Assembly: GCA_009783025.1 (NCBI GenBank)
Contig: WRHY01000004.1
Span: 1 to 64,000, forward strand
DNA: 64,000 nt
Direction of reading: 5' to 3'
Source of the DNA: Desulfovibrionaceae bacterium
Lineage (GTDB): Bacteria; Desulfobacterota; Desulfovibrionia; Desulfovibrionales; Desulfovibrionaceae
Positions within the stretch are counted from its first letter, which is position 1. Each line of letters opens with the position of its first letter. Position numbers and translations under genes: made by a program. This document shows, in pieces, positions 21,688 through 46,500 of the stretch. Under the pieces are notes generated by a model. The model saw only the letters and a list, made by a program, of their open reading frames with translations, searched no databases and had not been told where the DNA came from.

Positions 21688-21696
21688 GGAAGCGTG

Positions 21697-26067: not shown

Positions 26068-26976
26068 ATGATCGCCATCAGCAAAGCCTGCGGATGCAGG
26101 GCGGTTTTTTTCTTTGCGCTTTGTCTTGGGCTGCTTGTCTGCCCGGAAGGACGGGCAGCGGAACAGGCCCTGGAAGTGCAGGGCGTTTCCCGCCCCATGT
26201 ACAACGCGCAACTCAGTTTTGCCGTGCCCGGCAGTATTTTCGCCATTCCCGTGCAACCTGGGCAGGCTGTCAAAGAGGGCGATCTGCTCATGCATCTTGA
26301 CTCACGCGCCGAGGACAGCCGCCTGGCTCTTTTGGACAGTGAGATCGCCAGCACCATCAAAATCCGCACCCTGACCACCAGGATAGAACAGGCCCTTCTG
26401 GATATGGAGCGTTATGCCGGGGCGCTGCGCAAACAAGCCGCAACGCTCATGGAATACCAGCACGCGAAGCTTGCGCACAGCCTGAGCATCCTCGCGCTGG
26501 AGGAGGAAGAGTTCCGCATCGAGCAGCTCAAGCGCAGCAAGCAGGAGTTGCTTGCCCAACGCGAGCGCATGTATCTCTACGCGCCCTGCGACGGGTATGT
26601 GGAAGAAATCCTGGTCGAACGCGGCATGGCCGTGGATAGAAACGTGCTTGCCCTGCGTCTGGTATCCATAAACCCCATCCTGGTGGAACTGACCCTGCCG
26701 GTGGACAAGGCCCTGTTGCTGCAACCGGGTGATACGGTCGAAGTGACCCAGCCCGGCTCGGATACCATATTTCCGGGTGTTGTCGCCCATGTGGCGAAAA
26801 TAGCCGTTCTCTCCAACCGCACGTTAAAGGTGCGCGTCCATGTGTCCAACCCCGGCGGCATGCCTGTCGGCCTGATGGTTAATGTTCGTTTTCCTCATAT
26901 CGAGGCCGGCGGGATTCCTGCCGGAAGCGCCGGCCCAAATAACAATCAAGGAGCATCCAATGAGTCAGAAAAGTGA
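26068..26976 (+). CDS. HlyD/RND-type periplasmic adaptor protein
   Basis: 302 residues with a signal peptide (ACGCRAVFFFALCLGLLVC, cleavage near EGRAAEQ). A lipoyl/barrel-sandwich half motif (AVPGSIFAIPVQPGQAVKEG, then DLLMHLDSRAED) precedes a short coiled-coil hairpin (~75-165). The second half motif (LYAPCDGYVEEILVERGMAV) and a beta-barrel domain (ITLPVDKALLLQPGDTVEV-like) complete the adaptor. It should bridge the inner-membrane component and the TolC-like channel. It has no N-terminal membrane anchor beyond the signal peptide. Its 3' end overlaps the DUF3467 gene by 17 bases. Confidence 0.88.
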   Translation: MIAISKACGCRAVFFFALCLGLLVCPEGRAAEQALEVQGVSRPMYNAQLSFAVPGSIFAIPVQPGQAVKEGDLLMHLDSRAEDSRLALLDSEIASTIKIRTLTTRIEQALLDMERYAGALRKQAATLMEYQHAKLAHSLSILALEEEEFRIEQLKRSKQELLAQRERMYLYAPCDGYVEEILVERGMAVDRNVLALRLVSINPILVELTLPVDKALLLQPGDTVEVTQPGSDTIFPGVVAHVAKIAVLSNRTLKVRVHVSNPGGMPVGLMVNVRFPHIEAGGIPAGSAGPNNNQGASNESEK

Positions 26977-27313
26977 AAGCCAGCAGATCCGCCTCAACGT
27001 CAACGCGGATCAGATGAAAACCTCTTACGCCAATGCGTTTCAGACCCACTCCACGCCCGAGGAACTGCTGCTTTCCTTCGGCATCAACCAGACGCTGCCC
27101 TCGCAAGAAGAAGGCGTGACCGCGGACATGATTCTGCAGTTCTCCGACCGCATCATCATGAATCACTACACGGCCAAGCGCCTGACCCTTTCCCTGCTGC
27201 AAAGCGTGCGCGAGCATGAGGAGCGCTTTGGCGTGATCGAGCTGGATGTTTCCAAACGGCTGCAACAGGCGCACACCGCTGAAGTGAATGAAGCTCCTGA
27301 AACCAAACAGTGA
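26960..27313 (+). CDS. DUF3467 family protein
   Basis: 117 residues, cytoplasmic, with RBS AAGGAG. The core YANAFQTHSTPEELLLSFG, then the hydrophilic stretch, then FSDRIIMNHYTAKRLTLSLL fits DUF3467, a small widespread family of unknown biochemical role. The gene overlaps its neighbours at both ends (17 and 26 bases), so it is embedded in the export operon and is likely to be made in step with the adaptors. It may be a chaperone-like or assembly factor; this is inferred only from position. Confidence 0.8.
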   Translation: MSQKSESQQIRLNVNADQMKTSYANAFQTHSTPEELLLSFGINQTLPSQEEGVTADMILQFSDRIIMNHYTAKRLTLSLLQSVREHEERFGVIELDVSKRLQQAHTAEVNEAPETKQ

Positions 27314-29210
27314 CGCGACAACGGGCCGGGGGGCCTCCCATCGTTTGGATGCCCTGATCGGCTCGCTGTTTACCGCCGGCTCCCACGAGGAGCTTTTCCA
27401 GGCCATCTGCGGCCTGGGCTGTGAGACCGCGGGCGCTGTCGGCGTGGCCGTGCTCGCCCGGCATCAGGGCAATGTCAGGGTTATCACGGCATCTCCCCCG
27501 GCTTCTCCTGAAGCGGGGGAGATGCCGTCCTGGCTGCTGGACCTGGCTAAAAGCTACGGCCAGATGCTGGCGGAAAACTGCCAGACCGTAGCGCTCAGCC
27601 CCGGCCCCGGAGGCGCTCATGGCGTGTTCGTGCCGCTACTGACCAATGAGCACGGCAGTCTTGTTCTGGCGGCCTATGTGCTGGGCGGGCGGCAGATCCG
27701 CCTGCAAAGCGTCAGCGATATCCTGCAACTGGTGCGGGCCAGCCTGTTTCTCGTGGAACGGGCTTCGCAGAACGGCGCGGAAGCGAAAAACGACCTTGCC
27801 AGGGACGCGGCCGAAGCCGGTCTGCCTGACGTTGTGGATATTGTCAGCGAAGTGCAGACCTGTACCCGTTTCTTTGAAGCGGCTTCCACGCTTTGCGTGG
27901 AAGCCTCCGCCAAATTCGAATGTCGGCGGGTGGCCCTGGGCATTGTCCGCGAAGGGCATGTCAAGGCCGTGGCCCTGGACCAGATGGAAAGTTTCTCCAG
28001 GGGCACGCGCAGCGTCCGCCAGATGGAAGAAGTCATGCAGGAGGCTCTGGATCAGGACCGCATGATTCTCTATTCGTCGCTGGAAGGTGAGAGCGCCGAG
28101 CCTGGCGTCATCACCCGTGCCGCCCGTGAACTCGCGGCCACGTCCAATACGCGCCGCATCCTGAGCATTCCTCTGCGCACCCAGGAAGATATCAGCTTCA
28201 TCATGCTTTTCATGCTGGAGGGTGAAAGCTTTACCGATCATAAGTTGAGCGCTCTCAGCCTTGTCTGCCGCCTGGCCGCGCCGCGCCTGCGCGATCTGCA
28301 ACTGGCCGAGGAACTCCCCCTGAAAAAAGCCTGGCGCTATTTCGTGCTGCGCTCCGCCGACATTTTCGGTCCCCGGCGCACAGTGCTCAAGCTGGCCGCG
28401 TCCCTGATCGGAATAGGCCTGACCCTTTCCCTGCTCGTTTCCGGCGACATCGTGGTTTCCGCCCCACTGACCATAGAGGGTGTGCACAGTTATACCCATA
28501 CCGCGCCCATGGACAGCTATCTCTACGAGGTCCTGGCCCGTCCGGGTGACCAGGTGAAGGCGGGCGACATTCTGGGGCGGCTTGACGCCACGGAAATCGG
28601 CCTGGAAATGGCGGCCCTTGAAGCGCAGCAAAATATCCATGAAAGCCAGGCTGATCAGTACCTTCAGGAAGGCAAAGACGCTGAGGCCGCTATCGCCCGC
28701 CTGGAAGCCGACCGCACGGCGGCTAACCTGGCCTGGGCGCGCCAGCGCCTGGCCATGACCGAACTCAAGTCCAGCGTGGACGGTTTTCTCGTGTCCGAGG
28801 ATATGTTCCCGCGCCTCGGCCAGCCGGTCCGGCGCGGCCAGGAACTGTTCGAAGTCACGGATACCGCGTCCTTGCGCGTCATCGTGCACGTGGACGAAAG
28901 CGACATCAGCGACATCAACCGCACCATGGCCAAAGGCAAAGTGCGGGGCAAATTTACCCTGACCGCTTACCCGGACGTGCGGATTCCCTTTACCGTTGAA
29001 CGCATCCACCCCTTTGCCGCGGTCGCGGGCGCCAGCAACGGTTTTGAAGTGCGGGGCCATATCGATATCGACGCCGTTCCCGGTTCCCTGGTGCTGCGCC
29101 CCGGCATGGAAGGGCACGCCCGTATCATTGCCGGGGAAACACCTTTGCTCGCCCTCTGGACGCGCAAGCTGGTGAACAAAGTTCGCCTGATCATGTGGCG
29201 GTGGCTGTAG
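27288..29210 (+). CDS. GAF-domain / HlyD chimeric adaptor
   Basis: 640 residues. The cytoplasmic N-terminal ~360 residues look like two GAF-type sensor domains (LDALIGSLFTAGSHEELFQA... and TRFFEAASTLCVEASAKFE...). A single membrane helix follows at ~368-390 (LAASLIGIGLTLSLLVSGDI). The periplasmic part has the HlyD architecture: half lipoyl motif (YLYEVLARPGDQVKAGDILG), coiled-coil hairpin (~440-490), second half motif (MTELKSSVDGFLVSEDMF) and a beta-barrel ending in VLRPGMEGHARII. A normal HlyD has only a short cytoplasmic tail, so this one may gate export in response to a small ligand or interact with the ATPase. It overlaps the DUF3467 gene by 26 bases. Confidence 0.85.
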   Translation: MKLLKPNSDATTGRGASHRLDALIGSLFTAGSHEELFQAICGLGCETAGAVGVAVLARHQGNVRVITASPPASPEAGEMPSWLLDLAKSYGQMLAENCQTVALSPGPGGAHGVFVPLLTNEHGSLVLAAYVLGGRQIRLQSVSDILQLVRASLFLVERASQNGAEAKNDLARDAAEAGLPDVVDIVSEVQTCTRFFEAASTLCVEASAKFECRRVALGIVREGHVKAVALDQMESFSRGTRSVRQMEEVMQEALDQDRMILYSSLEGESAEPGVITRAARELAATSNTRRILSIPLRTQEDISFIMLFMLEGESFTDHKLSALSLVCRLAAPRLRDLQLAEELPLKKAWRYFVLRSADIFGPRRTVLKLAASLIGIGLTLSLLVSGDIVVSAPLTIEGVHSYTHTAPMDSYLYEVLARPGDQVKAGDILGRLDATEIGLEMAALEAQQNIHESQADQYLQEGKDAEAAIARLEADRTAANLAWARQRLAMTELKSSVDGFLVSEDMFPRLGQPVRRGQELFEVTDTASLRVIVHVDESDISDINRTMAKGKVRGKFTLTAYPDVRIPFTVERIHPFAAVAGASNGFEVRGHIDIDAVPGSLVLRPGMEGHARIIAGETPLLALWTRKLVNKVRLIMWRWL

Positions 29211-29219
29211 GGCAACATC

Positions 29220-31421
29220 ATGGACACCCGGCAGGAACGACACAGCACCTATCACGATCAGTGGTATCTGGTGGAAAGCCTCACCCCGGCCCTGCGCCCT
29301 GATGTGAACATCCGCCGGCAGACATACTGGGGCACTCCCTGGTATATTCTGAGCGAGCCGGACAACAACGCGCACTTCCGGCTGGCCCGTGGGGGATACG
29401 CCTTTGTATCCATGTTGGACGGCTCCCGCACCGTGCAGGAAATATGGGAAACCTGCCAGGATGCGGACGAGGATGAAGCCCTGACCCAAGGGGAAGTGAT
29501 CGCCCTGCTGGGCAGACTGCACACTTCCGGCCTCCTGCTTCTGGACATGCCGGCGGACACGGATACCCTCCTGCGCCGCAAGCAGGAACGCCGGTTGAAA
29601 AAACTCGGCAGCACGCTTTCCTCCTTTCTGTTTCTGCGCATTCCCCTCTGGGCGCCGGACGCCTTTTTCACCCGTTTCCAACATATCGGCGGCCTTGCGT
29701 TCAGGCCCCTCGGGTTTCTGCTCTGGCTTGTCCTTCTGTTCCTTGCCGCGCACGCCCTGATCGTCAACTGGGACATCTTTGTGGCCGAGGCCCGCCAGAC
29801 CCTGAACCCGGCCAACCTGATCTGGATTTACGCGGTCATCATCCTGGCCAAGATCGTGCACGAATGCGGCCATGCCTTTGCCTGCAAATACTTCACCGCC
29901 AGAGACGGCCTGACGGGCGACGTGCACAGCATGGGAATCATGCTCCTGCTGTTCGCGCCCGTGCCCTATATTGACGTAAGCAGCAGCGTGCAGATCCGTT
30001 CACGTTGGGCCAGGGCGGCCATCGGCCTGGCCGGAGTGTACTGCGAACTCTTTCTCGCTTTTCTGGCCACCCTTGTTTGGGCCAATACGGCCGAGGGCAC
30101 CAGTCTGCATCTGCTGGCGCGCAACTGCGTGCTGATCACCTCGGTCACCACCCTGCTTTTCAATATCAACCCGCTCCTGCGTTTTGACGGCTATTTCGTG
30201 TTCTCGGACCTCCTGGACATGCCCAATCTGTACCAGCGGTCCCAAGCCTATATGGTCTATCTTTTCAAACGCTGGCTGCTCGGTGTGGCCAAGGCCGTCA
30301 CCGTGGTGCATAAGCGAAACGAGAAGATTTTCTACCCCGTATACGCCACGGCCGCGTTTTTGTATCGTATCGTGATCACGGTGAGCATTTTCCTGATCCT
30401 GGAAGAAAATTTCGCAACCCTGGGCACGCTGCTCGCCGTCAGCCTGTTCCTGCTCTGGTTCGGGCTGCCGGCGCTTAAAGGTCTGGTCTACCTTTTCACC
30501 GGAACCGAGCTTGCCGGTATGCGGGAACAGGCCCTGCTGCGCTTTTCCCTGTTTGTCGGTGTGCTGGGCGTGCTGTTGCTCGGTATCCCCGTGGAAAGCG
30601 CGGTGGTGGTCGAAGGCGTGGTGGAGAGCCGGGAACAGAACGCTATTTTTGCCGAAGTTGAAGGCACCCTGACCGGTTTCGCGCTCACGGACACGTCCGT
30701 GAGCAAGGGTGTGACTCGAGTAATCACCATAGACAATCCCGGCTTGATGGCGGAACTGGAGCGCATGGCCCTTTCCGCGGCTGTGGTTCTGGCCAAGCTC
30801 GAACATGCCCACCACAAAGGAGATACCAATGCCGCGGGCATGTACGCTCTGGAACTTCAGGCAACGGTTCGGCAACTGGATATCCTGCGCATCCAGGCCG
30901 CGAAGCAGGCCATCAACGCGCCTGTCAACGGCGTGTGGGTGGCTCCGGATCTTACCCGCAGGCATGGCAAATGGATTGGCAAGGGCGATATGCTGGGCAG
31001 CATTTATTCTCCGGACAACCTGCGGCTGCGCGCCGCTGTGGATCAGTTCGACGCGGCCCGCCTGTTTGCCGAGCCGCTGGTCCGGGCCGAGTTCACCGTG
31101 TCCCGGCGCGCGGACATCAGGGACCGCGACGGGAAGCTGTTCAGCGCCCGGCCGGAAAACGATCCGGTACCGGCCGGGCGGCGTCAACTGTTTCATCCTT
31201 CCCTGGCCATGCAAGCCGGAGGGGATACAGCGACCGTGCAGGGGCCGCGTGGGGAAGTACTGACGGCCAGCCACTTTTTTGAACTGCGGCTGTTGCCGGA
31301 AGAGGAAGCCGTACCGCACCTCGCGCCGGGCCAGAAGGTCCTGGTGCGCCTGGTGTTCGGCAAACAGTCCTTGGGCGAACAGTGGATGCGCCGCATCCAG
31401 CAGTTTTTCAGGAACAGGTGA
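29220..31421 (+). CDS. M50 site-2-protease-like / HlyD chimera with PqqD-like N-terminus
   Basis: 733 residues. N-terminal ~40-110 is a PqqD-like winged helix (FRLARGGYAFVSMLDGSRTV, then EVIALLGRLHTSGLL). A polytopic membrane part follows with an M50 zinc site, HECGH (214-218), and a second site NPLLRFDG (317-324) supplying the Asp ligand, so both motifs of a site-2 protease are present. Further membrane helices lie at ~365-460. The C-terminal ~260 residues form a HlyD-like periplasmic arm (VVVEGVVESREQNAIFAEVE, a short hairpin, INAPVNGVWVAPDL). The protein probably sits in the inner membrane and joins the TolC-like channel, with intramembrane cleavage or cargo binding as possible roles. Ends just before a five-hairpin element. 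Confidence 0.87.
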   Translation: MDTRQERHSTYHDQWYLVESLTPALRPDVNIRRQTYWGTPWYILSEPDNNAHFRLARGGYAFVSMLDGSRTVQEIWETCQDADEDEALTQGEVIALLGRLHTSGLLLLDMPADTDTLLRRKQERRLKKLGSTLSSFLFLRIPLWAPDAFFTRFQHIGGLAFRPLGFLLWLVLLFLAAHALIVNWDIFVAEARQTLNPANLIWIYAVIILAKIVHECGHAFACKYFTARDGLTGDVHSMGIMLLLFAPVPYIDVSSSVQIRSRWARAAIGLAGVYCELFLAFLATLVWANTAEGTSLHLLARNCVLITSVTTLLFNINPLLRFDGYFVFSDLLDMPNLYQRSQAYMVYLFKRWLLGVAKAVTVVHKRNEKIFYPVYATAAFLYRIVITVSIFLILEENFATLGTLLAVSLFLLWFGLPALKGLVYLFTGTELAGMREQALLRFSLFVGVLGVLLLGIPVESAVVVEGVVESREQNAIFAEVEGTLTGFALTDTSVSKGVTRVITIDNPGLMAELERMALSAAVVLAKLEHAHHKGDTNAAGMYALELQATVRQLDILRIQAAKQAINAPVNGVWVAPDLTRRHGKWIGKGDMLGSIYSPDNLRLRAAVDQFDAARLFAEPLVRAEFTVSRRADIRDRDGKLFSARPENDPVPAGRRQLFHPSLAMQAGGDTATVQGPRGEVLTASHFFELRLLPEEEAVPHLAPGQKVLVRLVFGKQSLGEQWMRRIQQFFRNR

Positions 31422-31600: not shown

Positions 31601-33583
31601 ATGAGTCTTGCTGACGGTTTCACATACGATCAAGTCTTTGCCGGACGCGATAAACCGCGCCGGGTTCCTCTCGGCTGGGACTGGGCTGTGGCGCGTTGCG
31701 AGCTTTTGTTCGCCGCCAAACCCAAAGCCTCGCGCCTCCTCGAGCAGGCGCGGAATGTGCTGGGCATGGAAGCGGAATGCGCCGCTCTGGCCGAGGAAGA
31801 ATTGTATGGTCAGTTAGACGAGGCGCGGATTATCTTCCGCCTGGGGCGTGAAACTGAAACAGACCTTGTACGCGCCATGGCCCTGGTGCGTGAAACGGCC
31901 TTCCGGGTGCGCTGTGAGAGACCCTATCTCCCCCAGGTGGCGGGCGCTCTCGGCATTCTTCAGAACTGCATCGTGGAAATGGCGACCGGGGAGGGCAAAA
32001 CTCTGACAGCGGCGCTGGCGGCCGTCATCGCGGGTTGGCGCGGCAAGGGCTGCCACGTGGTGACTTCCAACGATTATTTGGCCGCGCGCGACGGGGAAAT
32101 CATGGCCGCATTCTACCGGGCCTGCTTCCTTTCTTCAGCCTCGGTCACTCAGGACAATACTCCGGAAGAACGCAAGGCCGCCTATGCCTGCGACATCACC
32201 TACCTGACCAGCAAGGAGGTGACCGCGGACTTCCTGCGCGACCAGATGGCGCTCGGCAAGGTGAACACGCACGCGCGCATACTCACCCGGACCTTGACCG
32301 GACAAGATGTGCCGCGACTGGTGCAGCGGGGTCTTGCCTCTGCCATCGTGGACGAAGCGGACTCCGTGCTTTGTGACGGGGGCAGCACGCCGTTGATTAT
32401 TTCCGTGCCCAAGGATAACGCGCCGAGCGTAGAGCAGTATCTGACCGCTTCCCAAATAGCGGACAGCATGCAGGCCGGGCGCGATTTCCGCGTGAATCAT
32501 AAGTATCGTGAAGCCAGGCTGACGGACATGGGCCGCAAGAAAGTCATGGACAGCCAGAAGAATCCGCGCACCGCCTGGGCGCGGCGCACGCGGGCTCTGG
32601 AATTGGTGCTCCAGGCCGTGGAAGCGCGCGAATTTTTTCAGCCTTCCGTGCATTACGTGGTGCGGGAGGGCAAGGTGGTTATCGTGGATGAAGCCACCGG
32701 CCGCATCATGCCCGACCATGAATGGCGCGACGGCATCCATCAGGCCGTGTCGGCGAAAGAAGGGGTGGAGGTTGTGCCGCCGCGCGCCACCAGCGCCCAG
32801 TCCACCTTCCAGGACTTTTTCCTGCGCTACAGGATTCTCGGCGGCATGACCGGCACGGCTTGGGAAGCGCGCAGGGAGTTTCTGCAATTTTACCGGCTGG
32901 CCGTGGTGCGCATCCCCACCCACCGGCCTTGCATCCGCTACCGCTGCTACCATGCCTTTCACGTGACCCATGAAGAAAAAATCCGCGATATTGTGAATGA
33001 GGCGGCGCGGGAGCACGCCAAGGGCCGCCCCGTGCTCGTGGGCACAAAATCCATTGAAGCGTCCGAACACGTTTCAGCGGCACTGACCAAAGCGGGCATT
33101 GTTCATGAAGTGCTGAACGCCGTGCAGCACGAGCGTGAGGCGGAAATCATCACCCTGGCCGGGCGGAAAAATGCCGTGACCGTGGCCACGAACATGGCCG
33201 GGCGCGGCACGGACATCAAGCTTGAGGACTCGGTTCGCGAGCACGGCGGGCTCCATGTGATTCTGACCGAACTGCACAGCTCGGTTCGCGTGGACAGACA
33301 GTTGCACGGCCGGGCCGGACGCCAGGGCGACCCCGGCACGGTGGCGGAAATTATTGCCATGGAAGACGATCTGTTTGCAACCATTCCCGCCTGGGTTCGC
33401 CGTTTGCTGAAGGAACTGCTCAGGACGACCGTTGCCGGAGTCCGGGCGCGTAAAATAGCCTGGAAAATAGCCGCGTTGTGCCAGTGGTTTGGCGACCGCA
33501 GGGCTTTTCGCATGCGCAAGCAGATGATCCAGAGCAACCGCCATTTCGCGGATATGATCAGCTATAGCGGCAAGCAGACCTGA
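31601..33583 (+). CDS. SecA-like preprotein translocase ATPase lacking the C-terminal domains
   Basis: 660 residues, compared with about 830-900 for housekeeping SecA. Motor motifs are intact: Walker A MATGEGKT (127-134), TSNDYLAARD (155-164), Walker B VDEADSVL (DEAD 251-254), NMAGRGTDIKL (531-541), and GRAGRQGDPG (570-579). A preprotein cross-linking domain is present (~220-390, HYVVREGKVVIVDEATGRIM). After ~residue 595 only a short helical tail remains, so the helical scaffold/wing part and the zinc-binding SecB tail are missing or much shortened. Such a protein is probably a specialised paralogue that handles particular cargo, here likely the LEPR-XLL giant protein. RBS GGAG is seen upstream. 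Confidence 0.9.
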   Translation: MSLADGFTYDQVFAGRDKPRRVPLGWDWAVARCELLFAAKPKASRLLEQARNVLGMEAECAALAEEELYGQLDEARIIFRLGRETETDLVRAMALVRETAFRVRCERPYLPQVAGALGILQNCIVEMATGEGKTLTAALAAVIAGWRGKGCHVVTSNDYLAARDGEIMAAFYRACFLSSASVTQDNTPEERKAAYACDITYLTSKEVTADFLRDQMALGKVNTHARILTRTLTGQDVPRLVQRGLASAIVDEADSVLCDGGSTPLIISVPKDNAPSVEQYLTASQIADSMQAGRDFRVNHKYREARLTDMGRKKVMDSQKNPRTAWARRTRALELVLQAVEAREFFQPSVHYVVREGKVVIVDEATGRIMPDHEWRDGIHQAVSAKEGVEVVPPRATSAQSTFQDFFLRYRILGGMTGTAWEARREFLQFYRLAVVRIPTHRPCIRYRCYHAFHVTHEEKIRDIVNEAAREHAKGRPVLVGTKSIEASEHVSAALTKAGIVHEVLNAVQHEREAEIITLAGRKNAVTVATNMAGRGTDIKLEDSVREHGGLHVILTELHSSVRVDRQLHGRAGRQGDPGTVAEIIAMEDDLFATIPAWVRRLLKELLRTTVAGVRARKIAWKIAALCQWFGDRRAFRMRKQMIQSNRHFADMISYSGKQT

Positions 33584-33622
33584 AAGCGCTCAACGTCGCG
33601 GCATGCCGCGCGGGAGGGGACT

Positions 33623-34264
33623 ATGGGTAATGAATGGAAGAGAAAAAAAGGGCAGAGCGAACTGGCCAGCGACCTCGGCATCAGCACCTGCATCTATCCC
33701 CCGCAGGCAACAAAGTCCGGCCTGCCGGAATACGCGGCGGACTCTTTACCGAGCGCGCCCGTCGCCGCTCAGGGCGGGCCTGTGGCCTCGCGGCCCGTGC
33801 TCCCTTTTGATTTTTCTTTGGCCGCGGACTGGCAGGCGTTACTGGAATCCGCTCTCGGAAGCGGGCAGCAGCCTTTCCAAAAACATTCCCTCCAGGACGC
33901 CGAAGAGGAAAACAAGCTCGAAGCCCTGCTCCAGGCCATCGTGGAGCACGGGCAGGAGATGCTGCCCTTGCTGCGTCTGCTGCGGGAAAAGGCTGAAACC
34001 GACAACCGCCTTGCCGAACTGGTGGACCTGCTGCAAAGCCGCCTGAACCTGAGCATTAGCGCGGCCTGCTCCCTGGCCCCGCGCGAAATGGAAGTGCTGG
34101 AACGCGCCGCCAGTGGAGAAAGTAATCCGCAGATTGCGCACAGCTTGAATTTACAGACAATAACGGTTGCAAAAGCCCTTTCCCGGGCCTACCGGAAACT
34201 GGGCGCCAGGAACCGCACCGACGCCGTGCATAAATGGCTTCTTCTCCGGGGTCGGCGCTCTTGA
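33623..34264 (+). CDS. LuxR-type HTH protein bearing the giant protein's N-terminal leader signature
   Basis: 213 residues. The C-terminus (~145-210) is a LuxR/GerE-type helix-turn-helix (LAPREMEVLERAASGESNPQ, then IAHSLNLQTITVAKALSR). A middle helical region (~80-140) may dimerise. The first 37 residues match the giant protein N-terminus at the same residue numbers: D17, G19, I20, T22, C23, Y25, P27, Q28, A29, K31, P35 and Y37 are identical (GISTCIYPPQATKSGLPEY here, GINTCYYTPQARKNRIPAY there). The LEPR-XLL motif itself is absent. It follows the SecA-like gene by 39 bases and precedes the giant gene, so it is a probable cargo-coupled regulator. RBS GGAGGGGA precedes the ATG. Confidence 0.85.
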   Translation: MGNEWKRKKGQSELASDLGISTCIYPPQATKSGLPEYAADSLPSAPVAAQGGPVASRPVLPFDFSLAADWQALLESALGSGQQPFQKHSLQDAEEENKLEALLQAIVEHGQEMLPLLRLLREKAETDNRLAELVDLLQSRLNLSISAACSLAPREMEVLERAASGESNPQIAHSLNLQTITVAKALSRAYRKLGARNRTDAVHKWLLLRGRRS

Positions 34265-34375
34265 GCAAGGACTAAAGCAGGCAACGTTTCCTTGCTGATC
34301 CCTCTTCTTTTTCCCTGCCGGAAAATAAAATTTTTTCATCTTTTTTTATCAAAATACCAAGTTATTTCATTGTAA

Positions 34376-34433
34376 TACGACTGATGTATCCGGTCGTATA
34401 CCTTGATTTATGGCCGGATATTTTCTCTATAGT
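34376..34433 (+). promoter_or_regulatory. Promoter/operator region of the giant-protein gene
   Basis: Inverted repeats TACGAC/GTCGTA (34376-34381, 34393-34398) and TATCCGG/CCGGATA (34387-34393, 34414-34420) lie in an AT-rich stretch. TTGATT (34403-34408) and TATAGT (34428-34433) are possible -35/-10 boxes, but their spacing of 19 bases is long. The inverted repeats could be operators for a LuxR-type activator. Bases 34265-34375 are AT-rich, with T-runs and no gene. Confidence 0.4.
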
Positions 34434-34440
34434 GGACCTG

Positions 34441-34472
34441 AATGCCTTTGCAGGGCATTTGGGTATTTTTTT
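34441..34472 (+). terminator. Terminator-like hairpin in the giant-gene leader
   Basis: AATGCC / GGCATT with a seven-base loop is followed by TTTTTTTG, 66 bases before the giant-gene start codon. If the promoter above is right, this is close to the transcript start and would act as an attenuator; otherwise it ends transcription from the HTH gene. Confidence 0.5.
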
Positions 34473-34537
34473 GTTCATAAGACCGTACTGTTGTCGGCAT
34501 GACCGGCAAAGGACGGGTTACCATACGGGAGGCCGTT

Positions 34538-37500
34538 ATGTCCGATATCCGCAAACTCTGGAAAGAAGCCGCGCAAGTCATTACCGATTCCGGCATCAAT
34601 ACCTGCTACTACACGCCACAGGCGCGGAAAAACAGAATTCCCGCCTACTTCGAGCAGTTGGAGCCGCGCCAGCTCCTCTCGGCCACCCAGGTCGATCCGG
34701 AGGTCAATGCCAACAACGCTCCGGTAGTGGCGGAAAACTTCAACGCCACGGATTCCAACCCCCTGGCGAATATCGCGGACCTGGCGGAGTTGCTCAAGCA
34801 GGCGGCCTTGCCGGACTTTTCCGGCCTGAACCTGTCCACGGTGCTCAGCGGCATTCCGGGACTGGACACGCTGACGGACCTCGCCAATCTGGACCTTGCC
34901 ACTCTCGGGCAGGACATTCTCAATCTTTTCCCCAAAGGCGGAGTGATCAGCGGCGACACGCTTACCGGCGAGACTCTTGGAGACCAGAACGGCCTCTGGC
35001 TCTCCCTCTGGGCAGGCACGCTGACCATTTCCGGCGACTTTACCGGCGGTCCGGGCACGAGCACCATGCTGGTCATGGCTTCCGGCGACGTGGTTCTTTC
35101 CGACGTGAGCTTCACGGGTATCGAATCCATTATCATCCGGGCCAAGTCCGTCACCTTTGGCACGGGCGATCAGGCGCGCACCATCAATATTGAAGGCGGC
35201 GAACTGATCATCTCCGCCCTGGGCGAGGTGGTGTTCAAGGAAAACGTCACCGTGACGGGCGACAACACGGCCAGCCTGACCATCACGGCTACGGACACCA
35301 TCACCGTAACGGCCGGAGCCACGATCAACGGCTTGAACAACGTGTCCATGACCGCGACGAACATCTACATCGGCAAAGCCACTGTGAATATCGGCGGTGA
35401 TTTCACGGCCCATGCCACCACCAGCGCCCACGTGCACCCCTTGCTCGGCCTGCTGCCTCTGAAGATCGCTCAGGGCCAGGCCAGCATCACCATTGACGGC
35501 GCGACCATCAGCGCGAAAAACGTGACCATCAAGGCGGAAGCCAAGGCCGAAACCACAGTCGAAATGCCCTCCCTCGGCGAATTGACCGGCAACCAGTACA
35601 TGGCGCTTGTCGATACCTTCATGGCCGCCAACCTGGGCGAACTCTTCAAAACCTATCTTGGTATTGATCTGCAACAGCTCGGGGGCGCGGGCGAAGGTCT
35701 CGGCTTCTTGCCGGCCAATACCGGCGGCGAGTATCTCGACACTCTGTCCAAACCGCTGGCCGACATGTTCATGGAGCTTTACAAAAGCCTGGCCCTCGGC
35801 GGCCCTATTCTGATCACCTACGGTTCGGCGGAAGCCAACGTCAGTATCAAGGGCGGCAGCATCACGGCGAGGGACGGCGATGTGAGCATAACCGCCTCAA
35901 GCACGGTCACCAACAAGCAGGAACACGAAACCGACCTTTTCGGCTTTGTGCTGGCCATCAACCAGGCCAACGCCGAGGTGAGCATCACCGACGGCACGAA
36001 GATTTCCGCCACGCGGGACATCATTATCGGCGCCACGACCGAAAACACCAACACGGTTTCCCTGACCAGCACCTACAAGGACAGAAAAGAAACCGCCGAG
36101 CAGGGCGGCGGGGCTCAGGGCAACACCCAGAACGAGTCCGACGCCAAGAAGGACACCTATGCCATGGCGCTGGCCATCGGCATCAACGAAGCGGTTGCCA
36201 GCACGGTGATCGGCCGGAACGTCACCCTGAACGCGGGCCGCGACATCGTTATCTCGGCCAAGACCACGGAAGACATCAGCCTCACGGCCACGGCCAACGC
36301 CACGGATGCCGGTAACCTGGCAGTGGCGCTGGCGCTGAATTTCGGTTCCGCCAAGAGCTATACCACGGTCAATGCCGTGCTGACGGCGGACGCATCCGTT
36401 TCCGTGACCGCTGAAACGGACGCCAAGGCCACCACGGCCAGCCACACCAACGACGATGAGAAGAAGGACGACAAGAAAGACGATAAAAAAGACGACGACA
36501 AAAAGGGAGCGCTGGCCGGTGTTTCCGAGAAGGTCAGCGATAAGTTGACGGATCTGGTGCTGGCCCTGCTGCCTTTGGGAGCCATCACCTCCAAACTTCA
36601 GGAAGCCAACATGGGCCTTGGGCTCGCCCTGGGTTTTGTCCTGCATGACGCCGTGGCGGAAACCGTTATCGGCGAGTCTGCCCTGATCACAGCCTTGGGC
36701 AAGACGGCCTCCAACCTGCCGCAAGGCTCCGGCGCGGTCATCCTGAACGCCGTGTCCAACACCACCCCGGTCATCCAGGTCAGCGCCTCCTCAAGCATGG
36801 ATTCGGCTTCTGCGTCCCCGAACAAGTCCCCGGACGAAATAACGAAGCCAGACACTCCCGACAACCCGGACCCCGGCCAGCAGCCCGGTCCGAATCCCGG
36901 CCAGAAATATGACCCCGCTGTGGTCGAGAAACTTACGGAAGTCGGCGTAATCACCTCGAAAGATCCGCACGGCTTCAAAACCGGCGACAAGGTCGTCTAC
37001 ACCTGCTCCGATCCGTCCAAGGCCCTGCCCGGCCTGGTCAGCGGCCAGACCTATATTGTCACCGTCTATCACGACGAGCCCAACCAGTTCGTGCTGCTCA
37101 ACGCGGACGGCAGCCATGTCCAGCATTTCCGGGATTTCAAAAAGACCGACTGGGATCAGTATACCCATACCTTCACCAAGGTAGGGGCTGACCAGCCCGC
37201 CCCGGATAACGGCGTGGTGTCCACCAGCCAGGACGCCGCGACCGTCAAGGGCGGCAACCTTAAAAACGCCGCCGTGTACTGCGACGATCACAGCTTCCGC
37301 GTGGGCGATGTGGTCAAGTATACCTCCTCAAGCCCGGTCAGCGGCCTGGTCAGCGGCCAGACCTACAAGATTTACGAAGTGGGCAAGGGACAGTTCGTCC
37401 TTGCTGACATGAACGGCAACAAAATTTTCATCGGCAACGGGGCGGCCAATTCCCAGCATACCTTCACCAAGTATGAAGAGCCCGTGACCCCGGGCCAGGT

Positions 37501-40500
37501 TGTGGCCAACAACAACGACATCAAGGAAGGCCAGGTCAACAAGGCCAGCGATTTTGCCGTGGGCGACAGCGTGACGTATACCTGCTCCGATCCCTCAGCG
37601 GCCATCAAGGGCCTGGTCAGCGGGCAAACGTACACTGTGGCCGCCAAGGGCGCGGACTTCTTTACCCTGAAAGACGCCGACGGCAAGATCATCGATCTTA
37701 TCCGGGGCAATGACGACGACGCGACCCACACCTTTGCCAAGGCGGCCCCGGCTGTCAGCGCCACCAAGGTCGTGGTGCCCGGCTCCAAGATTGAAGCCAA
37801 CAATAAATTCATGGCGGACAAGATTCCCTTCAAGGAAGGCGACAAGGTCACCTACAGCGTGGCTGAAGGCGGCACGGCGCTCTCCGGTCTGGTTGTCGGC
37901 AAAACCTATACGGTGCGCTCCGTGGGCGAGGGTTATTTCCAACTCACTGACGATGACGGCAACCTGGTCAACGTTGCCCCTTCGGGCGCGGCTCTGACCA
38001 GCGACCATGTGTTCACCCTGGACGGCACCGGCGCAGAGGTTCAGGAAAAAGACAAGGGCGTGAGCATTGCCGCGGGCGTGACCGTGTTTACCAACACGGC
38101 CAATGTGGTAGTGCAGAGCGGCGCGAAGATCGTCTACAACTCCCTGGTGGAAGTCACTGCCGACGCCAATTACCTGGCGGTGGAGAACAAGCATTCCACC
38201 TTGGGGCTCGCGGACAAGGTGAACTCCAAGTTGGACAGCGCCGGAAGCGCTGTTTCCATGATCCCGCTGGATTTCCTCAGCAAAGCCCTTGACGGCGTGA
38301 AGGATCTCACCACCTCCATCGACGATCTGTATTTGGACGCCCAGAAAAACCTGGGGCAGCTTTTCGGCGTTGACGCGGTCAACTTCGCCAACAAAGATTC
38401 CGCGTTCTTTGTGCCCAATTCGTATATTTACGCCGTCACCGCCGGGGCCAAGGAGTTGTCCACCGCGGCCAGCATTTCCTACATCGGCCAGGAGAACAAC
38501 GCCTCCGCCGTTATCCAAGGCAATGTGGACATCGTCAGGGCCGGGGCAATCACGGACGCCGCTGTCAGCGGCAATACCGTCACCCTTGATCAGGCCTACA
38601 GGGGTTATGAAGGCTATGTGACCTACGAAGTCAGCGCAGGCGCGCCCGCGCTTGCCGGTCTTGTTTCCGGGCAGACCTATTGGGGCACTGTGGACAGCCA
38701 GGGCAGGCTGACGCTGCGCCTCGCTCCGGGCGGCTCGAGCATCACTGTGGGCAGGAGCAACGGCACGGGAGAACATCACTTTCTGTTCCAGCAGCAAGCC
38801 ACGCCAACGCCCGACAAGATCGATCTGAATTACGATTCCACCGCAAGCGACAGCACGGTGCTTTCCTTTACCGAGCCGCACGGTCTTAAGGACGGCGACA
38901 TCGTGCGGGCGAGCGGCAACCTGGGCCTGGACAGCGATGCGCTGTACATGGTCTTTGTGCGCAGCCTCACGGACATCTCCCTCAAAAAAATTGAAAACGG
39001 CACGGTAGCGGACGATTTCGCGGCAATCACGCCCACGGCCGGTGGCTACTATTTCCTGGTCATGGCCACGGACGCGGAAAAGCGGGACGCCGGGCTTTCC
39101 TTCTCCATGACCACGGCCGAATACAAAAAGGATAATGCCGGCGCCTACAATCCCTTTGCGGGTTTCGCCACCGGGGATACGGTGACTTACAACAGCAGCG
39201 GCGCGGCCATTGACGGTCTTGTCAACGGCGGGTCCTATACCCTGGTCCTCCTGGGCGGCGGCAGCTTTGCCCTGAGAGACGCCGGCGGCGCGATCATCAC
39301 CCTTTCCATGAACGATGCGGCCGTGTCGGCCAACCACACCTTCAGCACGGCGGGCGCGACAACGGTCATCAATGGCGCGGACCTCAGCGTTTCCACCACT
39401 CTTGACGGCAACACCGTGGCCACGGCCGCGACCAGAGGGACGACCATCAACGCGGGCGATGACGTGGCCCGCGCCTTGCGCGACGGCGACGTGGTGACCT
39501 ACAGCAGCGACGGCAAGGTCATTGACGGCCTTGAAAACGGCAAGCAGTACGTGGTCTCCCTGACCGCGAGCGGTGGCTTTGCCCTGCGGGCCTATGAAAA
39601 CGGCCGGGCTGTCGGCGGCTACATCAGCCTTGACCGTCTGTGCAAAGACGGCAACAGCGCGACACTGCATACCTTCACCCTGACCGCCCCGGCTTCCCAG
39701 GCTCCGCTGGTGGTTGACGCGACCACGACCGTCACGGATGCGAACGCGCTTTTCATCGGCAAGCACGACTTCCAGAGCGGCGACAAGGTGACGCTGTCCG
39801 CCATAGCCACCAACGCCAACGGCGCGATACTGCTCAATGCCGACGGCAGCCCGATGTACAACAGCGTGGGCGTCTTTACGGTGGTGCGCCTTTCCGCCAC
39901 CAGCATCAAGCTGATTGACGCGCGCGGCAACGAATACCGGCCCCCGGTCGGCGCAAGCAGCGGCTACAACGACTACAAGCTGACCGTGGCGGACGGCCCC
40001 GCGCTCACCTTGGGTATAACGGCGAACGGCGGGCTCACGGTTAGTGACGCCACCGGTTTGTACAACGGCCAGCAAGTGCGTTTCGCGGGCAGCGGCACGC
40101 TGACCCTGGCCGACGGCTCCACCTACACCCTGGTCAACGGGGCGGAATTCTTCATCCGGTTGCAGGCGGACGGCAGCATCCTGCTGGCCGAGAATTATGA
40201 ACAGTACCTGGCGGGCAAGTTCCTGACGGTTGCCGCCGCCAATAATCTGAACGGCACGCTGACCGTTATCGGCGCCGAGCATGGGTTCAACCAGAACACC
40301 GTGGCCCTCGGCAAGTATATCATCACCCAGGATACGCCGCACGGCCTGGAAAACGGCAGCATTGTGACCATAGAACGGGGCGGCGAGCTGGAATACTACA
40401 CGGTCACCACTTACGGCGCTTACAGCTTCACCCTGACGGATCTGGAAAGCGGCATCAGGGCCACTCTGGACTTCCTGTTCGCCGGTGATGCGTCCATCAC

Positions 40501-43500
40501 CCTGAACCGGCCGCTGGATTCCATCAGCTTCAGTGCGGCCAACATGGCGCAACATCCGTCCTATATTCAGAAAAACAACCACGGCTTTGTCACGGGTCAG
40601 GCGGTTGAACTCGTTGACAAGGACAACACGGTCATTGCCACCTATTATGTGGTGAAACGCGACGACAATTCTTTCTATCTGGCGGAAACCCTCCAGGATG
40701 CCCTGAAAGGCGCCATCCTGACCGGAGAAATTTCCTTTACCGTGGCCGACGGACAGACCGCGGCCGATTACAAGCTGCGGCAGAAGACGCAAAACCTGGG
40801 CATTTACGTCGCGGCCAAGAGTTCGGACAAGACCGTGAACCTCACGGGCAAAATGGGCACCGGCCAGGGGAGCCTGAAGACGAGCACCGCGTCCGACGGC
40901 AAGACGGGCCTTGTTGATAAAGTCAGCGGGGCGATCAAGGACAAAATATCTCCCCCGCGCAACCCCGACTCCGGCTCGGCAGCGGGCGCGGCCGTGCAGG
41001 TGCTCAACCTGCAACATAACACCTCGGCCAAGGTGGGCGCGGATAACAGCACGGCCCTGATCATGGGACAGAGCCTGTCGGTCACCGCCAACGCCAACAA
41101 CGGCATCATCGGCCTGACCCAGGCCGGTTCCAGCGGCTCGCTCAAAGGACTTTCCGGCACCTTGGGCTTCCTCCATCTGGCTGACGTGACCACGGCGGAA
41201 CTCAACGTGGGCAAGGGCCGCGTGACCCTGGGCAACGCCCTTGGCGCGGACGGCAAGAACAGTCTGCTTATTGAAGCCAAAAACAACAGCATTTACACCC
41301 AGCTCTCCGCCACCATGTCCAGCGGCGAAACAGCCATGGGCGGCACGGCTTTTGTCCAGATAGTGGACCGCGAGACCACCGCGACCCTGACCGGCTCCCC
41401 GGATATGGGCGGGCGCGTTTCCGTGCTCGGACTGGCCGAAGTGAACGCCCTGAACACCGGGCGCGGCATGGCCGTGCTGATTGGCGGCAGCAAGGCTTCT
41501 CCGGCGCAGCAGCAGGCCGCGCAGGAAGAAAAGAAGGACGACAAAAAGCCCGACGAAAAGCCGGGCCAGGGCGACACGGGCGGCGACAGCAAACTTTCCG
41601 GCATCACCTCGGGCCTGTCCAAACTCGGTTCCGTGGCCCAGGCGCTGCAAAGCCTGTTCCCGGACAATTCCAATGACGCGAATCTGACCGAGGAAGAGAA
41701 GAAAGCGCGCGAAGAGCAGCAGAAGGACGGCAATTTCTTCAGCCTGATCACGGGCAACGCGGACAAGGCCAAATCCATCATGGACAGCTTGTCCGGCGCT
41801 CTCGGGCAGGTGGACAAGACCGTATCCGACCTGATCAAAGGCACCCCGTCCGAGGACAACAAGCCCGGAGGCGGCTCAGGGGATCAGGAAAAGGGTGACG
41901 ATACGCCGTCAGTGAATACCGCCGGAACAGCCGAGATCTTTGTCGGCTACAGTTCCGAAGAAACCAGGGCCGTGGTCCAGAATCTGTCCAGCCTGGTGGT
42001 GGCCGGGTTCGTGGCCCGCGCCTTGAACGACACCAAACAGATTACCGCTGCCGGAGCCCTGGCCCTGACCACCGGCGGCTCCTCCGGATCGGGCAAGGAC
42101 GGGAAAAATCAGGACAAGCAGAGCTCCAGCGATTCCAAGGCCGGAGCGGGTACCTTCAGTCTGACCATCACGGACCGCGATACCGAAGCCTCGGTCAACA
42201 ACGTTGCGAACATGCGCGTGACCGGGCCTTCCGGCATGAGCGTCAGCGCAAAGGACGAGGGCTTTGTGGTTAACGTGGGCGCGGGCCTTGCAGGCAGCAC
42301 CTCGGGCGCGGGCTACGGCGGCACCCTGCTCATCAACGCGCGTCTTACGGATGTCAAAGCCTTTGTGGCCAACAGCAACCTGACCGTGGAACAGGGCGCT
42401 CTCAGCGTTGAGGCCCTGAACGATGTGAAAATGATCACGGTCGCGGGCGGCGGCGGCTACGGCGACGCCAAGGGCGTGGGTCTTTCCCTCGGCGTGAACG
42501 TGCTCTCGGGCGACACCCTGGCCTATATTTCCGGCAGCACAATCACCGCACGGGATGTTTCCGTTTCCGCCATGAGCGGCACAGGCACGGACCGGCAGGG
42601 CATCGACCTTGGCGACAACCCGGAAGAAGCGGTTTCCGGCATTGACTCCATTGATGGCGGCTACAACCTCATCGCCATTGGCGCGAGCGCGGGGATTGCC
42701 AAGGGCGGCAACTCCCTGGCCGGAACTCTGGTGGTGAATACAATCATCAGTAATACCGAAGCCGGTATCAGCGATTCCACCGTTATTGCGGATGGATCGG
42801 TTTCCGTGCTGGCGGCGGATCAGTTCGGCGTGCTGTCCATCGGCGGCTCCCTCGGCCTGTCCGGCAAGGCAAAACAGGATGATTCCAACAAGGATTCGGA
42901 CGGACAGAAATCCACTTCCGTGGGCGCGGTGCTGGCCGTGAACGTCATCAATTCCACCAGCAACGCCTATGCGCGTGATATTGAAATCGGCAAGCCTCTG
43001 AGTACGGAGGGCGCGGATATTTCCGTCACCTCCCTGTCCAAACAGCAGATCCTGTCCATTGCCGGGGCTGCGGCCGCCGCCCAGGGCGACGCCTATGCCG
43101 TGACTCTGGCCGCCAACGTCATCGCGGCCGGGGCGGCCGCTTCCCTCGACCGCGCGAACATCACGGGCAAAACCCTGTCCGTGGTCAGCGGCAACGAATC
43201 CACCATCCTGTCCATTGCGGGCGGGGTCAGTCTGTCCACGGGCAACAACGCGGCGGCGGCCATCGCGGCCAACGTCATTGCCGGAGCAAACATTCCGGCG
43301 CTCGGACCGGATTCCGATCCCAAAGACTTCGAAGCTTCTCAAGGCGGCGGCACAGGCAACCTGGACGTGAGCGCCACCATCGACAATTCCACGATTGTCC
43401 TCAGCGGCGACTCCGAGGATTGCCTGCAGGTGCTGGCCGAAACTTCCAGTTCCATCCTGTCCATTGCGGCGGGCATCAGCGTGTCCACCGGTTCCGAAGA

Positions 43501-46500
43501 TGGCGCGTCCGACAAGACCAACCTGGCCGGTTCGGCCACGGTGAACGTGATCGCGCGTAACGTATACGCGGGCGTGTCCAATACCAGCATCACCAGCGCG
43601 GGCAAGGCCAGCATTGTGGCCCGCGATTATATCATCAAAGCTGACGGCTCACAGCAGGGCAGCCGCATTCTGGCCATTGCGGGCCAGGTGGGCGCGAGCA
43701 AGGGCAAGCAGGCGGGCGCGGCCCTCGGCGTAAACGTGATCAGCAACGACGTGACCGCGGGCCTGATCAATTCGGACCTGGCCCAGAGCGGCGTAAACGG
43801 CGGCCTGGATGTGCTGGCCGACTCCATTGCGGAAATTCTGAGCGTGACCGCGAGTGTAGCGGTTTCCATCAAATCCGGCGGGGCTGACGCCAAAAGCGCC
43901 TCCATCGCCGTGAACGTCATTGACAAGGATGTCAGGGCCACCATTGAGGGCGCGAAAACTTCGGGCAAAGAAAAGACCGTCACAGGCCCCATTCAAGTAC
44001 GGGCGACGGACAGTTCGCAGATCCTGGGCCTTGCGGCTTCCGTGGCCGTGGCCGTCGGCGCTGACGCCAGTTCCATGGGCGGCGCCGTGGCGGTCAACGT
44101 GGTCAACAGCAAACAGCTCGCGGGCGTGTACAACGCTTCCATCACGGCTACCGGCTCCATCAGCGTCCTGGCGGAAGGCTCGGGCAGCATCCATGCCGTC
44201 AACCTTGGCGTGGCCGGGGCGGGTCTTGTGCTCAACCCCAACGTGATCGTCAACAGCACTGCGGCGGAAGTGAAAAACAGCACGCTGATCTCCTCGCTGG
44301 ACAATATTGACGTGTCCGCCTGGCAGAGCGCTCCCGGATCCACTTTCACCGAACGCTGGATCGATAAAACCAGCAACAATGACGCCGATATCACGGCGTA
44401 CCTGGGCACCGCCGGCATTGATTTCAGGACCAACATCCTGTCCGTGAACCTGAACGTGGCCGTGAACGTGGGCGGCGATAAGGTCAGCTTCAGCGGCGCG
44501 GTAGCCGTGAACGTGATCGCCTCCGAAGTCAATGCCCTGGTTGAAAACTCCACCTTGAGCGCGAGCGGTAATGTTACTCTGAACGCGGTGAACAGCGCGG
44601 TCATCAAGTCCATAACCGTGGGCGCGGCAGTCTCCGCCGGATCCGGCGCGGCCATTTCCGGCGGCATCGCCTCCAACACCGTCGTGGGCGGAGCCTACGC
44701 CCAAGCGCTGAACAGTAACCTCAGCGCGGGCGGCAATCTGGCCGTGACCTCCCTGACCAACGCCGACATTCTGGCCCTGGCCGTGAACGCGGCGGTTTCC
44801 ACCGGCGGTACGGCCGGCGGGCTGTTCCTGGGCGTGAACGTGATCAGCATGGATAGCATTGCGAGCATCAGCGGGGATCGGGCCATTACCGAAATCGCGG
44901 CCGGCGGCGACCTGTCCGTCACCGCAAGGGACAGGTCCAAAATCTGGGCCTTTACCGTGGCCGCGGCAGTGGCTGCGGGCAGTTCCGCCGCAGCGGGCCT
45001 GGCCAACAACACCTCGGTGATCGTGGGCAACGTGTATGCCGGGATCACGGATGTCAACACCATCCGCGTGGGCGGCGACCTCAAGGTGGAAGCCCTGTCC
45101 TCCATCCAGATTGTGAACGTCGCCATCGGCGTGGCCGTTGGCGCGGGCGGGGGCGCGGCCGTGCAGGCCACCCTGAGCGAAAACATCATCGTGCGCGACG
45201 TGTATGCGGAACTGGCCCATATCAATGAAGTCACCGTGGGCGGCGATCTGGTGGTGCGCGCGCTGGAAGCCAAGCCCGACGACATCGGCGACTGGCGCAA
45301 CGCGAGCTATATGCAAGGCGTGGGACTCAACGACGTGGATACCGGCGCGCTCAACTCGGGCGAGACCGATGAAGCCGGAGTGAGCGTCGGCAGCAGTTCC
45401 GATCCCAATGCCGACCCCGAACACAACTATGATCCTAACGCAGCCCTGTTCAACCCGGACAGCGGCATCTTCTCCCTGGTCGTTTCCGTGGCCGCCTCCG
45501 CCTCGGGCGCATCGGTTTCCGGCGCGCTGAACTTCAACTGGCTGCAACGTTCCGTGAACGCCGTGGTCGACGATGTGAACGAGATCAGGTTCACCAGCGC
45601 GGGCAAACAGAATGGTGAAAAAAGCGCCATGATTGTGGAAGCCATGTCCTCGGCAGCAGCCTTTGGCGGCGTGCTCTCCGTGGCTGCCAGCGGTGGCGGC
45701 GTAGGCGTGGGCGCGGCCATTGCCGTGAACGTGCTCGACAACAAGACACGGGCCATCATTAATGACTGCACCATCGGCGGCTGGAACGGCTCAGACTGGG
45801 ATACCTCCAAGCTGGGCGCGGTGAGCGTGAACGCGGAAAATACCTCCGGGGCCGTGGCCTTGGCGGTGGGCGTGGGCGCGAGCGGCGGATCCGTGGGCGT
45901 GGGCGCATCCTTTACCCTGAACCTGGGCATGAGCGGTTCGAGCAAGCTGGACCTTTCCGGCAAGTCCGAACAGGAACGCAAGGACACGGCCCGTTCGCTG
46001 AGCCAGGCGTATTCCAAGGATCTGGAAAAAGACGGCGCCAGCGCCTATACTCATGACAGCAGCTACGACGGGGATGCGCCGAGCCTTGGCGGCGAAGTTG
46101 CCGAAGCGGGCATTATCGGCACAACCATCCACTCCAGCGGCGCGCTGGTGGTGGAAGCCGTGCAGAACAGCGCTCTTATGTCCGTTGACCTTGCGGTTGG
46201 GGCAAGCTCCTCTGTGGGCGTTTCCGGCGCAATCGCCCTCAACCTTCTGCGGGCCAATTCCTCGGCCTATGTTCTCGGCAGCACCTTGACCAGCGGTTCC
46301 GCCAGCGTAAAAGCCACCACAGCGGGCAAGGCCTGGGCCTTCCTGATCGCCGTGGGCGCGGGCGGCACCGTGGGGGCCTCGGGCGTGTTCAGTTTGAGCC
46401 GTGTTGCGGGCAACGCCCAAGCCTACGTTGAAGGCGGCAGCATCACGACGACGAACGGCGGTCTGACCGTCAGCGCGGGCGGTCTGACCGACATGCTGAC

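Follow-up and report, generated by a model that had tools for sequence, protein, structure and literature searches.

In the stretch of DNA studied here, hereafter the window (64,000 nucleotides of a Desulfovibrionaceae bacterium, positions 1 to 64,000 of contig WRHY01000004.1), the gene of a small LuxR/GerE-type regulator is followed by that of a giant protein, the presumed cargo of an export locus with a SecA-like ATPase, and the two proteins share a short segment near their N-termini, here called the tag. The question raised by this locus is why a DNA-binding regulator should carry the same peptide as a presumed cargo. Our tentative answer, to which we give a probability of about 0.45, is that the sequence similarity reflects a docking peptide for one partner, so that giant protein in the export queue would vie with the regulator for that partner, thereby adjusting its own production. 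The features directly concerned are the following:

33623..34264, + strand: LuxR/GerE-type regulator of 213 residues, with the tag near its N-terminus
33671..33733, + strand: shared tag, regulator residues 17-37 (pairwise and profile alignment)
33758..33769, + strand: PVAA motif, regulator residues 46-49, conserved in the family
34070..34231, + strand: helix-turn-helix (GerE) domain of the regulator (domain scan)
34538..59608, + strand: giant protein of 8356 residues, presumed cargo (translated open reading frame)
34586..34648, + strand: shared tag, giant residues 17-37 (giant alignment and profile-profile match)
34649..34684, + strand: LEPR-XLL motif, giant residues 38-49, which the regulator lacks; FEQLEPRQLL is invariant in six giants

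Residues 17-37 of the two proteins align without gaps and are identical at 12 of 21 positions (D17, G19, I20, T22, C23, Y25, P27, Q28, A29, K31, P35 and Y37), with further matches beyond the tag at M1, K6, K9, P43 and A49. The best ungapped score of the pair is 74, and the scores of 3000 shuffles of both 60-residue N-termini did not exceed 39; moreover, the pair ranks first among the 351 N-terminus pairs formed by 27 open reading frames (ORFs) of the window, hand-picked as likely genes, the runner-up scoring 38. When the 38-row regulator alignment was compared with six giants by profile-profile alignment in hhalign, 36 gapless columns were obtained, with a probability of 92.7 and an expectation value (E) of 4.4e-7 for this single comparison, and a tblastn search of the regulator against the loci of two relatives recovered the N-terminus of the giant of locus L001 (residues 6-50, E 4.6e-4 in a small set). 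A six-frame regular-expression scan of the window returned the two tags plus two other strings, the latter outside likely gene starts. Thus, the gapless match and the 12 identities from which the original prediction started were confirmed by shuffling, by profile-profile comparison and by the ranking of ORF pairs. Its emphasis on identical residue numbers is correct for this pair and partly accidental, given that the motif position shifts among regulators: the first motif position, Cys in 34 of the 38 regulators that match, is residue 23 in 19 of the 38 and elsewhere ranges from 7 to 45. The codons at the 12 identical residues are the same in six cases, which gives no indication of recent copying at the DNA level, and recent gene conversion was rejected.

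Conservation of the tag was assessed across the regulator family, of which 41 members, the window's own included, were found in a search of 5.8 billion proteins. The tag motif, defined as [CYS]x[YH][PTS][PS][QEV]xx[KR] within the first 80 residues, is present in 38 of the 41, a count which, as those for the motif position above and for LEPR-XLL, PVAA and the giants of other loci below, was obtained with a regular expression composed after the sequences had been inspected. Homologues without this N-terminus, which had been named beforehand as counter-evidence, amount to three: P0036, whose sequence begins inside the protein; P0038, in which the tag has decayed; and P0039, which has none. Regulator conservation averages 1.52 bits in residues 1-16, 2.89 in the tag (17-37), 2.45 in 38-60, 2.01 in 61-90, 2.69 in 91-140 and 3.58 in the helix-turn-helix. 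In the AlphaFold2 (AF2) model, the tag lies in a low-confidence stretch (predicted local distance difference test, pLDDT, about 50-60) between a short N-terminal helix and the helical middle, and its conservation despite the low pLDDT is as expected for a linear binding motif. In the model of the first 300 residues of the giant, pLDDT is <50 over residues 1-125 and the chain is beta-rich from about residue 133; the tag is thus predicted to lie in flexible sequence in both proteins. A PVAA-type motif (P[VI][ATM][AGP]) is shared by 39 of the 40 regulators whose N-terminus is present and is missing from the giant, P46 being invariant across the regulator profile.

The GerE domain at the C-terminus of the regulator scores 54.8 bits against a curated cutoff of 23.5. 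Pfam scans at E 0.01 found no receiver domain, disorder plus helices being predicted before the helix-turn-helix, and the 213-residue protein gave no match at E 0.01 to the ATPase or TPR domains by which a member of the MalT family would be recognised. Domain scans and fold comparison revealed no known domain other than the helix-turn-helix, receiver and ligand-binding domains included, and the fold matches listed all lie within residues 131-213, the lack of a listed match for the middle region carrying no weight either way. With no sensor domain detected, the N-terminus suggests itself as the input of the regulator. Three short regulators (P0040-P0042, 151-156 residues) keep the tag and the GerE domain with most of the middle gone; P0042 may be cut at its N-terminus. 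In genomes G055 and G087, parts of MalT-like proteins (loci L005, L006 and L007) align with the regulator profile over its C-terminal two thirds (E 1e-23 to 1e-32); these matches begin at profile position 69 at least, inside long MalT-like frames, and the tag profile found no match in either genome. These profile matches suggest a possible MalT-like ancestry for the small regulator. In viral contigs, the regulator profile gave 35 pattern matches, none of which was confirmed.

Six giants carry the tag, namely those of the window and L001, and P0043-P0046. Compared pairwise, they are 57-95% identical at residues 17-37, 83-100% at 38-49, where the window giant has the LEPR-XLL sequence FEQLEPRQLLSA, and 12-59% at 50-300. 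Against the LEPR-XLL family NF012209, the window giant scores 16.6 bits, the curated cutoff being 17. Three giants probably share contigs with regulators, as judged from equal contig sizes (31790, 40005 and 138700 for P0043 with P0010, P0044 with P0005, and P0045 with P0028, respectively). In the P0045 giant and the P0028 regulator, position 37 of the tag, Tyr in most sequences, is altered in both, one case of possible co-evolution. Further truncated giants were sought with no result.

Whether the tag belongs to the export system in general was addressed through the other genes of the locus. One strand carries the whole set, in the order MalT-like regulator, TolC, HlyD, DUF3467, GAF-HlyD, PqqD-M50-HlyD, SecA-like, LuxR/GerE regulator and giant; 39 bases lie between the end of the SecA-like gene and the start of the regulator, and 273 between the end of the regulator and the start of the giant. 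The genes that precede the regulator are:

21694..24324, + strand: MalT-like regulator, candidate tag receptor (GerE domain; weak MalT match of 66.3 bits against a cutoff of 537)
24491..26050, + strand: TolC-type outer membrane channel (domain scans)
26068..26976, + strand: HlyD-type periplasmic adaptor (domain scans)
26960..27313, + strand: DUF3467 protein (start picked inside the ORF 26882-27313)
27288..29210, + strand: GAF-HlyD adaptor (domain scan), in which a hydrophobic segment at residues 366-384 separates GAF from HlyD
29220..31421, + strand: PqqD-M50 metalloprotease (HECGH)-HlyD membrane protein (PqqD and M50 both under the Pfam cutoffs)
31601..33583, + strand: SecA-like ATPase of 660 residues (DEAD, preprotein cross-linking and P-loop domains)

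Of 348 genomes from the class to which genome G001 belongs, 35 have relatives of the PqqD-M50 protein at E 1e-30 or better, 15 of these with places at 1e-87 or better; such relatives are also present in 21 of 395 genomes drawn from its phylum (both counts include G001) and on alphaproteobacterial plasmids. Some other kind of HlyD-M50 protein may account for the weaker matches. Twenty genome loci picked by strong M50 matches contain, as judged by tblastn, M50 (20/20), GAF-HlyD (20/20), SecA-like (19/20) and DUF3467 (16/20) genes, the locus lacking a SecA-like match being on a contig of just 5046 bases. All 14 giants with a readable start in other loci (L017-L020, L067, L068, L075, L078, L080, L082, L084, L085, L088 and L093, among which L075/L082 and L078/L080 are close relatives and the start codon of L067 is ambiguous) have LEPR-XLL or a close form of it (LEQRILL, LENRVLL or MEPRVLL), and none has the tag; they begin with a short, often basic stretch. 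Conversely, LEPR-XLL is found in none of the 40 regulators, and the window regulator has no match to NF012209. The description of the shared segment as an export leader, given in the original prediction, was therefore abandoned: the tag is absent from 14 of 14 other giants of the system, and the element common to its giants is LEPR-XLL, which the regulators lack. On the sequences compared, the tag is clade-specific and accompanies the regulator, and is not a general export signal, a role that fits LEPR-XLL, seen in giants of the system from both the G001 phylum and Alphaproteobacteria. Genes of the SapC family adjoin two alphaproteobacterial loci of the system (L012, 17254-18075; L019, 7558-8355).

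The co-occurrence of tag and regulator across genomes was examined with profiles of the regulator (A1, cut-off E 1e-12), the giant leader (A2, E 0.01) and the tag (A5, E 0.05), absences holding at these cut-offs and in genomes of unstated completeness. A2 matches one of the 348 genomes of the class, G001 itself. In 21 other genomes that have a strong PqqD-M50 relative, neither A5 nor A1 has a match (the locus was fetched for 19 of these tag-less genomes); G001 is positive for both. Even at E up to 10, the tag profile finds just two matches in G001, the adjacent regulator and giant genes. Since a clade-specific peptide occurs in just two proteins of neighbouring genes, in flexible sequence of both, one shared binder would be the best explanation.

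The partner of the tag could be the MalT-like protein or an export part, namely the SecA-like protein or the PqqD domain. The former is a candidate because it is found with the loci of this clade: its gene precedes tolC in the window as well as in L001 and L002, and a search confined to 49 pieces taken from 27 other loci yielded only a weak helix-turn-helix match, in L010 (E 0.012). The SecA-like and PqqD proteins are candidates because they are expected to handle cargo; as the SecA-like, DUF3467 and PqqD-M50 proteins also occur without the tag, they need not be its receptor. The idea of a shared partner put forward in the original prediction is supported insofar as one binder best explains a segment conserved in regulator and presumed cargo, and does not require that this binder be one of the proteins it had named. 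A clade-specific receptor insert in the core parts was considered as well and rejected, the longest insert being of 11 residues.

A site on which the regulator might act is predicted upstream of the giant gene:

34385..34408, + strand: block TGTATNCGNTCGTATANCTTGATT 5' of the giant gene, ending in the -35-like TTGATT; predicted operator/promoter
34428..34433, + strand: -10-like TATAGT, 19 bases past TTGATT

The block TGTATNCGNTCGTATANCTTGATT is common to the window and L001, and lies 5' of the giant gene in both; in each case the -10-like hexamer comes 19 bases further on (TATAGT in the window, TATTGT in L001). It is single in the window (no second place at up to 6 mismatches) and gives a single match in G001 at up to 2 mismatches; the region looks like an activator site facing a weak promoter. 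GGAGG is located at 34528-34532, just 5' of the giant start at 34538. Between the predicted -10 element and this start codon, a terminator-like hairpin with a T run (34436-34464) may be an attenuator; it was not seen at the corresponding place in the L001 alignment. An Rfam scan of 33500-34700 gave no match.

In the docking mechanism that we favour, a single partner would bind both the tag of the regulator and that of the giant, and the regulator would act as a cargo mimic that docks without being exported because it has no LEPR-XLL. A giant awaiting export would compete with the regulator for the partner, the regulator would in turn act on the conserved block 5' of the giant gene, and the resulting feedback loop would, as a natural expectation, be homeostatic. 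The fuller version, in which the regulator mimics the cargo N-terminus without LEPR-XLL, docks, never leaves and reports the giant queue, with the MalT-like protein as the clade-specific tag receptor, is possible and somewhat more doubtful.

Several observations weigh against this mechanism. The co-occurrence with the MalT-like gene concerns three loci, of which L002 ends before the regulator, and the core parts contain no clade-specific insert of more than 11 residues, the longest being at the C-terminus of DUF3467. The presence of the tag in six of six giants is a biased count, P0043-P0046 having been retrieved through their similarity to the tagged N-terminus, and L001 alone of the other giants was found through a different gene (SecA-like); furthermore, the giant P0046 has no contig counterpart among the listed regulators, and the giants that go with the decayed tag of P0038 and the lost tag of P0039 were not seen. 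The PqqD-M50 gene closest to that of the window (76%) belongs to G002, the genome of L002, in which no tag or tagged regulator turned up, though its contig ends in the SecA-like gene; tag-profile scores are weak there (E 0.046 and 0.4), no tag was seen in the forward frames inspected, and the first 300 residues of the giant gave no match in a search run without a control. The helical middle of the regulator (91-140) is conserved nearly like the tag, and could be the input instead of it. Regarding the control site, the block was compared across two related loci only, and a consensus promoter scan 5' of the giant called nothing, because its spacing limit is 18.

Other explanations of the shared segment were weighed against the same evidence. 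The regulator might read the tag by itself, its own copy folding back to silence it until displaced by that of the giant, with no third partner involved; this would suit the two tag matches of G001 and the lack of a long clade-specific insert in any core export part, but P0040-P0042 keep the tag though most of the middle is missing, and AF2 places the tag in low-confidence sequence; we regard this reading as unlikely. We are equally sceptical of a shared turnover or localisation signal, recognised by one protease adaptor or membrane anchor that serves both the unexported giant and the regulator. Such a signal would look like the tag, a short motif that is conserved and predicted to be disordered in both proteins; however, the adaptor would likewise have to be clade-specific, and no candidate was found, no search having been aimed at one.

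Less probable still is that the regulator is itself exported through the SecA-like, M50, HlyD and TolC proteins, its level in the cell being lowered as with FlgM. The N-terminal segment in common with the presumed cargo and the start of the gene just past the SecA-like gene speak for it, whereas the lack of LEPR-XLL in all 40 regulators, and the 14 giants of other loci that do without the tag, which makes the tag dispensable for export in general, speak against. A comparably low probability is assigned to recombination between adjacent genes, by which one 5' end would have been moved onto the other, leaving similarity without shared function: the genes adjoin and the tag was seen in a single clade, yet it is strongly conserved in giants whose residues 50-300 have diverged to 12-59% identity, it is conserved in regulators, and its codons bear no trace of a recent copy.

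The docking mechanism has parallels in known systems. FlgM and LcrQ/YscM are flagellar and type III regulators tied to the state of export by a recognition element in common with cargo; the proteins are unrelated to those described here, where the route is of SecA type and the regulator is a DNA-binding protein without LEPR-XLL. Likewise, a transport component, MalK, restrains the LuxR-type regulator MalT; a MalT-like protein is also encoded in our locus, but the shared peptide is carried by the cargo and by another, small regulator. The C-terminal GerE domain is common to LuxR/GerE regulators such as CsgD, VpsT and NarL, in contrast to which a conserved linear tag was found here, and no receiver or ligand-binding domain. 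With the LEPR-XLL proteins (NF012209, LEPR-8K) the window giant shares the motif, but in it a clade-specific tag precedes LEPR-XLL. A further large protein, probably starting outside the window, is represented at 24-1370 by its C-terminal portion, which contains repeats (YNDAVDAHESAIKDHNDALTDYDQAEKV) and RTX-like sequence.

As for the export route, a SecA ATPase has been proposed to cooperate with an M50 protein and with components resembling those of type I systems (Kamneva, Poudel and Ward, 2015; PMC4452313), and the broader role of this secondary SecA_DEAD/type-I-related locus was called completely unknown in the same article. Like the window, the locus described there has SecA_DEAD, M50, GAF-HlyD and HlyD, with OEP in some loci and no ABC transporter found; in the window, SecA_DEAD, M50 (below the Pfam cutoff, with HECGH), GAF-HlyD and HlyD are present without an ABC transporter. 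The part of the main text of that article covered here makes no mention of DUF3467, LEPR, LuxR or Desulfovibrio, and no cargo tag or tagged regulator figures in this part of the account (PMC4452313). Among the matches listed from the open-access literature, as far as their text was available, nothing points to the tag, and LEPR-XLL appears in passing mentions.

Our results tie the LEPR-XLL giants to the SecA/M50/HlyD locus of PMC4452313, and they split the giant N-terminus into two segments open to separate testing: LEPR-XLL and the clade-specific tag, which the regulator also carries. Cells producing proteins of about 8000 residues must not outpace export and, if the docking mechanism is true, a tag-bearing regulator would sense the export queue directly, outside the flagellar and type III systems.

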